Assembly (NCBI GenBank): GCA_017457045.1
Contig: JAFTIF010000020.1
Span: 1 to 13,180, forward strand
Length of the DNA stretch: 13,180 nucleotides
Direction of reading: 5' to 3'
Source of the DNA: Bacilli bacterium
GTDB lineage: Bacteria > Bacillota_I > Bacilli_A > RFN20 > UBA1709
The notes under the pieces are model-generated. The model worked only from the letters and a program-made list of their open reading frames with translations, had not been told where the DNA came from and ran no database searches. The translations under genes were made by a program, and so were the position numbers. This document shows positions 4,189-11,021 of this stretch, one piece after another (positions within the stretch are counted from its first letter, which is position 1; every line of letters starts with the position of its first letter).

Positions 4189-5265
4189 ATGAAAAAGATT
4201 TTATTAGCATTTTTATTATTATTTAGTTTTGCACTTACAGGATGTGGAATACCTGATTTAGGTAATGGATCTGGTATTGATGCTGAAGTAGAAGAAGTAT
4301 TGAAAGAATATACACCAAGTTGTAAGAAAATTGAAGATGAAACTAATAAGTATGAAAAATCGTCATTAATTCAAGCAGGAATATTAAATGTTTATGTTTT
4401 AAAAGATAATCAAAACGAAGAAGTTTCTTATGGTTATTTAGTTAATGCTAATGGTAGAAATGGCGTAATAAAAATGGTACTTGTATTATCAAATACAGAT
4501 AATGTTGTTTTAGGATTAAAAGTCATGGAACATACAGAAACAGAATCATTCGGTAAAATCCTATTAGAAAGTCCAGATTTTGAAAGTCAATTTATTAATC
4601 TACCTTTTGATAATGTGGACACAAATGTAAAATATGATGGTATTGCTTCAGCATCTTTAACATTAAAAGGAGTTAAAGATAGTGTTAAGAAAGTAATAAC
4701 ATTCCATAAAACAAAAAATCAAAGTGGAACAACAAGTAACGCTAATGTTTCAAGTGAAGAAAGGGCTTTGATGGGACTAGATAAAAACGATGAATTAGTT
4801 GATAAGTCAGAAGAGTTTTTAAACACTTTAAAAGCAAATGTTAGTGAAAACATGTACAACACTTTAACTAAAAATCTAGGTCTTAAATATTATGTTGAAA
4901 TATTAGATGGAAATAAAAACATTAAAGGCTATGGTTATATTGTTGAAGGAAAATATAATTATGAAGCAGAAAACGGATCACGTTTAACTTGTTCTTATAA
5001 ATTATCTTTAACTATGGATAAAAATTATTCAAATATAAAAGTAGCTGTGTTGAGTTCTGAAGATACTATTAAAGATACATTTGTTGAAGATACAGCAGTT
5101 ACTGATTGGATTAATAATAATTATAATGGAAAATCAATTAAGGAAATAAGTGAAATGGGCACAAATGTAGATTCTATAGTTGGAGCAACATTTACTTCAA
5201 GTGCATATCGTAATCACATATCTTATATTGTTAAGGCACATTTAAGAGCGTTCCCAGAACAATAA
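4189..5265 (+). CDS. Lipoprotein with tandem FMN-binding-type domains (PplA-like)
   Basis: The 358-aa product starts with a signal peptide and a classic lipobox, LTGC, with the modified Cys at residue 19, so it should be anchored on the outer face of the membrane. It then has two copies of a domain of the RnfG/NqrC FMN-binding type. The second ends in DSIVGATFTS, where Thr334 is in the position to which ApbE-type enzymes attach FMN covalently. The first has DGIASASLT at the matching place: the Gly is Ser and the acceptor Thr is Ser156, so its flavinylation is doubtful. Two such domains on a lipoprotein recall PplA of Listeria, an extracellular electron-transfer flavoprotein. No ApbE/FmnB, Ndh2 or quinone-synthesis gene lies nearby, so the partner proteins must be elsewhere. 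It is flanked by its own promoter and two terminators. Confidence 0.82.
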   Translation: MKKILLAFLLLFSFALTGCGIPDLGNGSGIDAEVEEVLKEYTPSCKKIEDETNKYEKSSLIQAGILNVYVLKDNQNEEVSYGYLVNANGRNGVIKMVLVLSNTDNVVLGLKVMEHTETESFGKILLESPDFESQFINLPFDNVDTNVKYDGIASASLTLKGVKDSVKKVITFHKTKNQSGTTSNANVSSEERALMGLDKNDELVDKSEEFLNTLKANVSENMYNTLTKNLGLKYYVEILDGNKNIKGYGYIVEGKYNYEAENGSRLTCSYKLSLTMDKNYSNIKVAVLSSEDTIKDTFVEDTAVTDWINNNYNGKSIKEISEMGTNVDSIVGATFTSSAYRNHISYIVKAHLRAFPEQ

Positions 5266-5327
5266 TACAAAAGACTTGTTTGATATATGGGTAAATTCTA
5301 AATATCATATGTTGTTTTTGTTAATTA

Positions 5328-5353
5328 GACCACCAAAAGGTGGTCTTTTTTTT
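5328..5353 (+). terminator. First terminator after the FMN-binding lipoprotein gene
   Basis: GACCACC (5328-5334) and GGTGGTC (5339-5345) pair perfectly around AAAA, followed by eight T. It is the strongest terminator in the window. Confidence 0.93.
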
Positions 5354-7336: not shown

Positions 7337-7376
7337 TAGTCATTTATCTTTTATGATGATATAATTTATACGGGTG
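7337..7376 (+). promoter_or_regulatory. Promoter and ribosome binding site of the SGNH lipoprotein gene
   Basis: TAGTCA (7337-7342) and TATAAT (7360-7365) are 17 bp apart, and TG at 7357-7358 makes TGATATAAT. Transcription should start near 7372, leaving a leader of only about 10 bases. GGGTG (7372-7376) would be the ribosome binding site for the ATG at 7383. This argues against the in-frame GTG at 7374, which overlaps that site. Confidence 0.7.
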
Positions 7377-7382
7377 ATTGTT

Positions 7383-10300
7383 ATGAAAAAATATAATAAA
7401 ATAATTGTTTTATTATCTACTATATTGATTTTTGGTCTTCTTTATGGATGTGCTGGAAGTGAAGGTCCACAAGGTCCGCAAGGGGAACAAGGTGTTCAAG
7501 GCGAAACAGGCCCGCAAGGTCCACAAGGAGAACAAGGTGTCCAAGGTGAAACAGGCCCGCAAGGTCCGCAAGGGGAACAAGGTGTTCAAGGAGAAACAGG
7601 CCCGCAAGGTCCACAAGGAGAACAAGGTATCCAAGGCGAAACAGGCCCACAAGGTCCACAAGGAGAGCAAGGTGTCCAAGGTGAAACAGGCCCACAAGGT
7701 CCACAAGGAGAACAAGGTATCCAAGGTGAAACAGGCCCACAAGGTCCGCAAGGAGAGCAAGGTATCCAAGGAGAAACAGGCCCACAAGGTCCACAAGGAG
7801 AACAAGGTATCCAAGGTGAAACAGGCCCACAAGGTCCGCAAGGGGAACAAGGTATCCAAGGAGAACCTGGTAAAGATGGACAAACACCTTATATTGGTGA
7901 AAATGGAAATTGGTGGATTGGACAAGAAGATACTGGTATTGTAGCAGGTGCTCAAGACTATAAATACTTAATTCCGAATCCACTTGAAGATAGTTATTTC
8001 GAAGGGAAAACTATCGTTTGTATTGGTGATAGTATTACTGCTGGAGTTGGAACTACAGTGGGTGAAAATGATTACGTTACATTATTAGGAGAAAGGCTAA
8101 GAGCTAATACAGTTAGAAAAGGTGTTAGTGGAACTACCTTATGTACTGATGGTTCTAGAAAATGTAACATTGATATGCTAACTAAAGAAAATATCGCGGG
8201 AGCAGATATTGTTACTATCTTTATGGGAATCAATGACTGGGCAAATGCTACAAGTAGTTATTATTCTGTAGGTGAAGCAGGAAGTAAAGATACTTCTACA
8301 ATATATGGTGCTGTAGATATGTGGTGTAAAAGAATTGAAGATTTACAAAAAGAAGAAGAGTTTAAGAATACGAAGTTTTATTTCATGACACCAGTTATTA
8401 CTTCTTGGAATAACTCAGTAACTTCTAAAAAATCATGGGATCAAAGCAAAGAAAATATTTGTGGTGATACATTAAGAGATTTATGTGATGCAATTATCGA
8501 TACATGCAATGAATATAAAATTCCTGTAATAGATTTAAATTATTATAGTGGTATTTATTATATATCTGATGATGATAATAACGTTGCAGAGACTGGTGGA
8601 GATGGAGTTCACCCTAGTCCAAAAGGTCATGAATATATCGCAGAAACTATAGAAATATTCTTGTTAGAAAACCCAACATATGTGGACTCTAAAGAGGCAA
8701 TTGATTATATATTGCAGCACGAAGATGTTAGTAAATCATATATTTATCCTGGTAGAGAATGGTTAATTAGAAAACCTGAAAAAGAAGATTCATCAGAACA
8801 TACTCACGTATTCACAGATTGGGACTATATGAAAAAACCAACATGTGAAGAAAAGGGGATATCATTCAGGTTCTGCGAAGAATGTAATTATACGGAAACT
8901 AAATATGTGGATTCACTAGGACATAAAAAAGTGATTGTTGAAGGTGTTGATCCAACATGTGAAGAGGATGGATTAACAGAAGGTCAAATCTGTGAAATTT
9001 GTGGCTATGTATTTGTTGAACAAGAAGTAATTATTGCTTTAGGTCACAATTTCCAAAAAACGATATATGAACCAACATGTGAAGAAAAAGGATATACCGA
9101 ATATAAATGTGAATGCGGACAAAGTTATAAAGAAAATTTTGTAGATGTGATTTCTCATAATGAATATGAAAATTGTGCCCATTTTATTGGAGAAAAAACG
9201 ATTTCATTTTTAGGGGATAGTATCACAACATATCCAGAATGGAGTAACAATACTTCATATAATTCTACAATTGGTAACAATGCACTTTGGTATGATGCTT
9301 CAAAGTTAGATAATGTTGATAAAACATGGTGGAAAAGAACGGTTGATAATCTAGATTTAGAATTATGCGTTAATAATGCTTGGAGCGGTTCTAGAGTTAC
9401 AACAACTGCAGGAACTACAGCAGCTACTTCCATGGATAGAAGTAACAATCTTCATAATGATTTAACTAATTCGTATCCTGATATAATTATTATTTATATA
9501 GGAATTAATGATTTTAATGCTGGAGTTGAATGTGGAACTTTTGTTTCGCTTGATGAAATTTATGATGAAGAAAATAAAACTTACATTGGTGATTTAACTA
9601 ACTTTGCGGATGCATATGCAACAATGCTTCATAAAGTCACAAGCAAATATATTAATGCAGATATATATTGTTGCACAATGTATAATAATGGAAATGATAG
9701 ATTAGTAAATTGGAACAATACAATTAAAAGTGTTGCTGATTACTTTGATGTTGGAATTATTGATTTTTATAGCGGAACAGAAATTAATGGCTCTACATTG
9801 AGTAATTATACAATAGATAATTTGCATCCTAATTCTGATGGGATGTATCAAATGTATAAATGTGTTGAAGAATCATTATCTAAAAATTATAAATTACCAG
9901 ATTTTGGTACAAAAAAATTGTTTGATAAAACAGTTTATTCAAATATAGAAATAAGCAATTTAAACGGTTGTAATTTATCCGATTCTCCATGGATTTATTC
10001 GAATGAAATAAATAATATTTTAGAATGTTCAAAAATAACTCGAATTGGAGCACCGATAAAAACAATTAGCAATTATACTCAAGCAAATTACTATACAATT
10101 AGTGTTATTAATCTATCGACTTACGAAATTAGAAAAACAATTAAAATAATTATACCTGCAAATTATTTTTCATCGAATACTGTTAATGAATGGTACTATT
10201 CTAATGTTGAAATTGAATTAGAAGAAAATGAAACATTGGCTTTTTTATCAAAAGATGATACTGCGAATGTTGGATATAGCTCAGTTATCTCTGAAATTGG

Positions 10301-11021
10301 AGGGGTAATTCAAATCAATAATAAAACACAATATGATCATATTTCTTTATTATTTGATATTACATATTTACCAAATGATGAAATTGATTTCAGTCAATTA
10401 ACATATACTGCTTTTGGTGATAGTATTACTTATGGAGCTGATTTAATAATTGGTGGAAGAGTTGAAAATCCTTATCCTACAGTGTTAAGTGAAATATTAG
10501 ATTTAAAATCTTATGAGAATAAAGGAATCAGTGGTGCTACATTATCAGCTAACGATCAAGGATTAACTTGTATGACAGATGTAATAACAGCATATACTTC
10601 AGAAACTGACATTATAGGTGTACTAGGAGGGGTAAACGATTTTAATAGAAATCTCCCACTAGGTGATATAGATGATAATGATACATCAACTATTTATGGT
10701 TCTCTTCATGTAAGTATGGCATATTTATCTGAAAATTATAGTGATTCATTTGTGTTTTATATGACACCGTATAAAGAATATTTCCATGGTGTATTATGGA
10801 GTGACAATAATTCTCAAGGTTATAATTTAGAAGATGTTTCTGATGCTATTAAAGAAGTTGCTGAAATTTATGATATTCCAGTACTAGATTTATTAAATGA
10901 AGGTAATTTTGAGTCTATAATGTACGATGAAGATTGTGATGGAATTCATCCTAATCAAAAGTTTATTACAAACGTAATGGCTCCTCAAATTGCAGACTTT
11001 ATTGAAGAAAACTATGAATAA
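7383..11021 (+). CDS. Cell-surface lipoprotein: collagen-like stalk plus three SGNH/GDSL hydrolase domains
   Basis: The 1212-aa product has a signal peptide ending LLYGC (Cys23; Tyr at -2 is unusual for a lipobox), nine 15-residue Gly-X-Y units (28-162) and a [18 protein letters not shown] linker (from 163) seen in other stalked surface proteins. SGNH domain 1 (about 205-435) has GDS Ser217, Asn284 in GIND, and Asp407/His410. Three Cys-rich repeats follow (486-514, 524-555, 564-592). SGNH domain 2 (about 605-840) has Ser613, Asn709 and Asp812/His815, with TWW and NNAWSGSRV motifs. A probable beta-sandwich (about 845-1000) precedes SGNH domain 3 (about 1008-1212) with Ser1014, Asn1085 and Asp1186/His1189. 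Domains 1 and 3 share DTSTIYG and F-x-MTP, so they are closer to each other than to domain 2. SGNH enzymes hydrolyse esters, often acetyl groups on glycans; substrates here are unknown. Start chosen from the ribosome binding site. Confidence 0.9.
7464..7868 (+). repeat. Nine tandem 45-bp units encoding a collagen-like stalk
   Basis: Nine in-frame copies encode [10 protein letters not shown][V/I]QGE[T/P] with no length variation. Units 6 (7689-7733) and 8 (7779-7823) are identical at the DNA level. Units 1, 3, 7 and 9 read GGTCCGCAAGG while 2, 4, 6 and 8 read GGTCCACAAGG, which suggests growth in 90-bp steps. Unit 5 breaks the alternation. The last unit ends in Pro rather than Thr. Confidence 0.97.

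Follow-up and report, generated by a model that had tools for sequence, protein, structure and literature searches.

We analyzed a stretch of DNA of 13,180 nucleotides from a Bacilli bacterium (hereafter, the window; positions 1 to 13,180 of contig JAFTIF010000020.1, assembly GCA_017457045.1) and focused on a gene of its forward strand that encodes a predicted lipoprotein with three SGNH hydrolase domains behind a collagen-like tract. An earlier note on this DNA, made from the letters alone, had already recognized the stalk and the three SGNH domains, and both stand; however, two further parts had been overlooked, a Cys repeat at residues 481-600 and a beta-sandwich at residues 833-1002. The parts are listed below, where S1, S2, and S3 are the SGNH domains, B is the beta-sandwich, and P numbers designate proteins of the set of relatives.

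7383..11021, + strand: whole gene, 1212 amino acids (aa); ATG start at 7383, stop at 11019-11021
7383..7451, + strand: signal peptide and lipobox LLYG-C23 (predicted lipoprotein anchor), from the sequence, the lipobox by regular expression
7455..7886, + strand: collagen-like Gly-X-Y stalk of 48 triplets; nine 45-bp units of the (V/I)QGET type
7887..7994, + strand: linker, with a by-eye likeness to the inter-collagen segments of P0016
7995..8672, + strand: SGNH domain S1, residues 205-430; Ser217, Asn284, Asp407, His410
8673..8822, + strand: post-S1 segment, residues 431-480; kept in P0002
8823..9182, + strand: three Cys repeats TC-x(9-10)-C-x(1-2)-C-x(12-14)-H, residues 481-600
9183..9878, + strand: SGNH domain S2 (PF16255 type), residues 601-832; Ser613, Asn709, Asp812, His815
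9879..10388, + strand: beta-sandwich module B, residues 833-1002
10389..11018, + strand: SGNH domain S3, residues 1003-1212; Ser1014, Asn1085, Asp1186, His1189

Domains and motifs of the protein

The Pfam scan of the window protein detected Lipase_GDSL_2 in three stretches, Collagen, and PF16255 on S2, all of them above the cut-offs; no dockerin was found at E 0.01, so by that test the protein is not cellulosomal. An in-frame GTG located 9 bases 5' of the ATG is also a possible start. A lipobox is a motif ending in the cysteine that marks a lipoprotein anchor, and the regular expression found one, FGLLYGC23, at the end of the signal peptide, in agreement with the lipoprotein claimed in the earlier note. 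The Gly-X-Y tract that follows is uninterrupted for 48-49 triplets (residues 22/25-168) and is encoded by nine 45-bp repeats with a match among them of 91%. The Pfam Collagen model gave 85.2 bits against a cut-off of 27.2, upholding the collagen-like nature of the stalk. The NCBIfam models for SclA, SclB, and Lcl (Scl1/Scl2/Lcl) scored 105, 98, and 98 bits, below their cut-offs of 400, 500, and 325, and these matches were restricted to the repeat tract. By eye, the linker resembles the TP-x-ITI-x-NGYWYIDG segments that separate the collagen stretches of P0016, where Pfam detected CFSR. Collagen rises 0.86 nm per triplet, and the 48 triplets would thus build a triple-helical stalk of about 41 nm (48 x 0.86 nm), a length that would span the wall provided that the host is of the Gram-positive type. 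The protein is probably a trimer at the surface and, since a triple helix contains three chains, nine SGNH sites would be displayed.

The Ser of block I, the Gly of block II, the Asn of block III, and the Asp-x-x-His of block V that characterize the SGNH/GDSL superfamily were all present, together with its flavodoxin-like alpha/beta/alpha fold, and block II read GVSG in S1, WSGS in S2, and GISG in S3. The Ser, Asn, and Asp-x-x-His were located in every domain at exactly the residues previously indicated. S2 has the SGNH fold, and its stretch 605-795 scored 42.1 bits with PF16255 against a gathering cut-off of 29.2. S1 is the leading domain of secreted multi-esterases, S3 is of the type found in small single-domain lipoproteins, and both match a domain of phage 80alpha, the SGNH domain of its tail-associated lysin (6v8i). 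The AxeA1 model gave 44.5 bits against a cut-off of 700, and as this is far below it, the window protein is not AxeA1 by the curated rule. In a tree that took in 148 of the 220 extracted domains (the 72 omitted were from proteins of the search with S3), S1, S2, and S3 fell into three separate clades, with the caveat that S1 and S3 are connected through long branches. Therefore, the three domains are not tandem copies, and the duplication of one esterase was ruled out. The assignment of domain 2 to another subgroup was right, and each of the three has a clade of its own; the two or three ester specificities proposed with it are made plausible by the three clades. A joint whole-length alignment for folding the three domains was abandoned because MAFFT put the S1 rows on S3.

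Between S1 and S2, the repeats have cysteines at positions 488/498/501, 526/537/540, and 566/576/578, and neither Pfam nor NCBIfam gave a family match to them in the window protein. The search pattern TC-x3-G...C-x(1-2)-C fixes three cysteines and leaves the histidine out of the selection; it retrieved 378 copies, spread over 68 proteins of the 214 analyzed below. The first His was located 12-14 residues past the last Cys in 328 of the 378 copies, and any His within 30 residues was found in 369 of them, as compared with 49% of random 30-residue stretches from the same proteins (1869/3780). Three cysteines and one histidine at fixed spacing suggest metal binding at an extracellular Cys3-His site more than they suggest disulphides. 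A literature text search with typical strings of the repeat found no paper. Regarding B, its relatives adjoin S2-type domains in P0081, P0099, and P0100. Of 434 candidates in a search with B alone, the window protein was the single one to pass E 0.001, and the viral structure search with B gave nothing at E 0.001; the model of this module had a pLDDT of 70.6 and came from an alignment of only five rows.

Relatives and exchange of modules

A search with residues 195-1212, which could reach only proteins of about 667-2121 aa, scored the 7991 candidates sharing most words and gave 174 proteins, of which the best 120 were analyzed. Together with 94 proteins from a search with S3 alone, these made up a set of 214, in which domains were assigned by phmmer (E 1e-3) and every count also takes in the window protein; some calls are weak, for example the first S2 of P0006 at 13 bits. 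At least two SGNH domains were found in 38 of the 214 proteins and at least three in 12. S1 was followed by S2 in 14 proteins, with Cys repeats between them in 7, and in two of the 14 (P0075 and P0093) the S1 was outside the S1 clade. The order S2 then S1 was also found in 14 proteins, and in 5 an S2 precedes S3, either immediately or with B between them. Twelve proteins combine an S1, S2, or S3 domain with a Gly-X-Y tract of six triplets or more. The exact order S1-Cys-S2-B-S3 was present only in P0001, the 90%-identity cluster to which the window protein itself belongs, with 6 members from 2 contigs; P0030 was flagged with all three types, but its S3-labelled domain was outside the S3 clade. 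Thus, among the 214 proteins the same order was not found beyond its own cluster, while the multi-esterase theme proved to be common: multi-SGNH surface proteins, collagen-plus-SGNH proteins, and lipoproteins with three GDSL stretches recur, and the novelty put forward in the earlier note is not supported in that form. The window protein looks functional and is one more combination within a large family of mix-and-match surface esterases. No title or abstract on a collagen-stalked triple SGNH protein was found among the matches listed, where subscription journals are mostly missing.

Three groups of relatives resemble the protein most. The secreted multi-esterases (P0004-P0037 and others, some with dockerins) likewise have S1 then S2, with the Cys repeat between them in half of the 14 cases, and several have at least three SGNH domains; the window protein carries a collagen stalk and a lipobox instead of a dockerin or a leucine-rich repeat (LRR), and a C-terminal S3. 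The collagen-like SGNH lipoproteins P0002, P0012, P0013, P0016, and P0031 share the lipobox, the Gly-X-Y tract, and the C-terminal S3 (69-88% identity), whereas their cores differ from that of the window: S1 by itself, an S2-like domain beside a different beta module, a beta-helix-looking (by eye) stretch before S2, or DUF4886 with a sub-threshold SASA match. Finally, P0008, P0011, and P0026 also contain a lipobox and three Lipase_GDSL_2 stretches, but no collagen tract was found in them and their order is S2-S2-S3 or S3-S3-S3. P0016, a 1764-aa lipoprotein on a contig of 96,746 bases, is another putative multi-esterase on a collagen stalk, with a lipobox, six Gly-X-Y stretches, CFSR, Cys repeats, DUF4886, the sub-threshold SASA match, and the S3 cap.

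Many of the 94 proteins from the search with S3 were small and single-domain, and a permissive regular expression picked out 44 whose N-terminus looks like a signal or a lipobox. S3 alone makes up a 256-aa lipoprotein (L002, 63%) of a Bacilli genome from sheep rectum, and further relatives of S3 came from metagenome-assembled genomes of goat and roe deer cecum. At E 1e-30, S3 relatives were rare in species genomes (2/279 in the order of G002 and 9/396 in the order of G001). Dockerins were listed in 10 of the 120 relatives and confirmed in both of the two scanned.

Near-identical S3 domains were attached to different cores. The S3 of P0016 and P0020 were 96.6% identical over 208 residues and their upstream parts gave no match at E 1e-3 (P0020 has no signal peptide and may be a fragment). 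The S3 of P0012 was 96.6% identical to that of P0122, which has only 39 residues upstream, and 92.3% identical to that of P0002, the core being S1 in one of this last pair and an S2-like domain in the other. Similarly, P0008 and P0010 have S3 domains that are 99.5% identical and unequal numbers of S2-type domains. The guanine-cytosine content at third positions was 0.12-0.20 in the window modules and 0.12-0.21 in the neighboring genes; as the modules fall within the range of the neighbors, the assembly is not obviously recent here, and no sign of a recent module import was seen.

Gene surroundings and links to phages

Six neighboring genes were scanned, encoding three transporters (MATE, MFS, and ABC), an FMN-binding lipoprotein, a helix-turn-helix protein, and an aldo-keto reductase; none of them indicates a substrate, and none had a phage-like Pfam match. 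Among the places listed from 279 genomes of the order of G002, the MFS transporter reached 37% identity at best, and 391 genomes of the class of G001 gave no match to it at 1e-100, an outcome that carries no weight. The lipoprotein at 4189-5265, whose FMN-binding domain resembles RnfG, adjoins the MFS transporter, and no further Rnf-like gene was present among the genes scanned in the window. A promoter-like site (7337-7365) is directly 5' of the esterase gene; 40 such sites were found against 45.5 expected, which is no excess. The terminator scan gave a single site (5327-5346), ahead of the ABC transporter. Within the window, no tRNA gene was detected, no Rfam family reached its gathering score, and a defense system was discarded, with no PADLOC match.

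S1 was 54-58% identical to domains of ten aligned phage-tail-like proteins, PHROG tail-fiber families were matched by all four phage-tail-like proteins scanned, and the best PHROG match of the window protein was also a tail fiber. Despite this top identity, the S1 of the window clustered in the tree with secreted clostridial proteins (support 92), apart from the phage-like ones, and the capture of S1 from a phage is not supported. The proteins P0040-P0066 have phage-tail-like N-termini (MSYTKQNFNAGDVLKAAQLN type), S1-type SGNH domains, and often Big_2; no relative was confirmed in viral contigs by the patterns used. In viral contigs, the S3 and S1 patterns matched 71 and 12 stretches, and none was confirmed by tblastn. 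Among phage records, tblastn matched 219, 210 of them from Staphylococcus phages, all with less than 60% identity and none covering 80% of the query. A plasmid home was rejected as well, since none of the 12 records matched did so over 80% of the query.

Proposed function and its alternatives

We consider it likely that this protein is a lipid-anchored multi-esterase displayed at the surface, which spans the wall and removes O-acyl groups from glycans. The lipidated N-terminal Cys23 would tether the protein to the membrane, and the Gly-X-Y triple helix of three chains would form a stalk of about 40 nm through or beyond the wall. At the stalk end of each chain, S1, S2, and S3 would act as O-acyl-esterases, spaced by the Cys repeat and the beta-sandwich, and acetyl or other short acyl esters would be stripped from glycans near the cell. 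This deacylation would let other enzymes or transporters use the glycans, or would remodel the surface. The protein may have originated by module exchange, with an S1-Cys-S2 tandem of the secreted multi-esterase kind placed on a collagen-lipoprotein frame, and S3, attached to many cores in this family, added as a C-terminal cap. As for the substrate, for which the earlier note suggested host or dietary glycans, the signs point in different directions: the dockerin-bearing relatives hint at plant fiber, and the phage-like kinship of S1 at bacterial polymers.

Several observations weigh against this proposal. Lipids, peptides, and thioesters are further substrates of SGNH proteins, and by regular expression 13 of 38 S2-type domains were without one or two of the three SGNH motifs (in P0008, P0010, P0039, P0005, P0009, P0081, P0099, and others), with an altered GDS block or a missing Asp-x-x-His as examples. 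This loss indicates that the S2-type subgroup can lose or change its triad, and some of the motif-poor domains may be binding domains or use another acid. Moreover, no carbohydrate-active enzyme was detected by Pfam among the six neighboring genes scanned, the envelope type is an assumption, and it is from the Gly-X-Y tract alone that a homotrimer is proposed; PMC7048315 describes a collagen-like protein of a phage for which a trimer had been anticipated and dimers were observed.

The enzyme could instead remodel a polymer on the surface of the cell itself or of its neighbors (O-acetyl groups of capsule, teichoic acid, or peptidoglycan), rather than feed on host or dietary glycans. The identity of S1 to phage-tail-like domains and their tail-fiber matches, the tail fiber as top PHROG match of the window protein, and the long wall-spanning stalk are in line with this, as is the match of S1 and S3 to the 80alpha lysin domain, which acts at the bacterial wall and for which activity is not demonstrated in the accessible part of PMC7048315. 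However, S1 groups with secreted clostridial proteins, three specificities exceed the obvious need of one surface polymer, and the dockerin-bearing relatives suggest plant fiber, so we regard a role restricted to surface polymers as rather unlikely, though worth keeping in mind. That the protein is mainly an adhesin, whose SGNH domains and beta-sandwich bind acylated glycans with catalysis being secondary, appears improbable: collagen-like stalks are common in surface adhesins, the tract matches SclA, SclB, and Lcl weakly, with scores well short of the cut-offs, and the active site of a CE2 esterase can also bind non-catalytically, as the title of PDB entry 2w9x states, but the catalytic motifs are complete in all three domains and the adhesin matches are confined to the repeat tract. 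A tail protein left by a prophage would explain the PHROG matches, and collagen and SGNH parts also occur together in phage tails, as reported in the accessible part of PMC7048315; yet the signal peptide with lipobox, the six scanned neighbors free of phage-like matches, the lack of a confirmed viral-contig relative with S3 or S1, and the absence of 80% query coverage in all 219 phage records make this explanation very hard to credit.

Comparison with described systems places the proposed multi-esterase in context. Fused CE6-CE1 acetyl-feruloyl esterases unite two ester specificities in one chain with intramolecular synergy, and differ in being from Bacteroidetes xylan loci and in having other esterase families, with no collagen stalk mentioned in the accessible part of the source (PMC7110780). 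Phage SGNH tail proteins (80alpha Tal gp59, 6v8i, and Klebsiella prophage fibers) have an S1-related SGNH domain and sometimes collagen-like fiber parts, and SGNH tail fibers were proven esterases in two cases, as far as the accessible part of PMC13123978 describes; unlike the window protein, they are virion parts without a lipobox. The PF16255 structures 4nrd and 4m8k, GDSL-like lipases of Bacteroides, are stand-alone chains of 227-236 aa with no assigned function, and a 2022 review states, in the part accessible, that only GDSL-1 and GDSL-2 members have been characterized biochemically (PMC9487903).

What is new here is the arrangement, as the individual parts were already known. The protein offers S2 as a testable PF16255 member beside two other SGNH subfamilies on one chain, and brings to attention a repeated Cys3-His module that is unmatched by Pfam and NCBIfam in the window protein. 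More tentatively, the family might work as a cassette system, in which a constant frame (lipid anchor, collagen stalk of variable length, and S3 cap) receives swappable esterase cores, some of them shared with phage tail proteins, the spacers being undescribed extracellular zinc-binding Cys3-His repeats; a population would thereby carry many acyl specificities on wall-spanning trimers of nine sites. Near-identical S3 domains on unrelated cores show how a surface esterase repertoire can be built by shuffling and, with an S3 that is 96.6% identical on unrelated cores, specificity could change quickly while the anchor and the cap stay constant.
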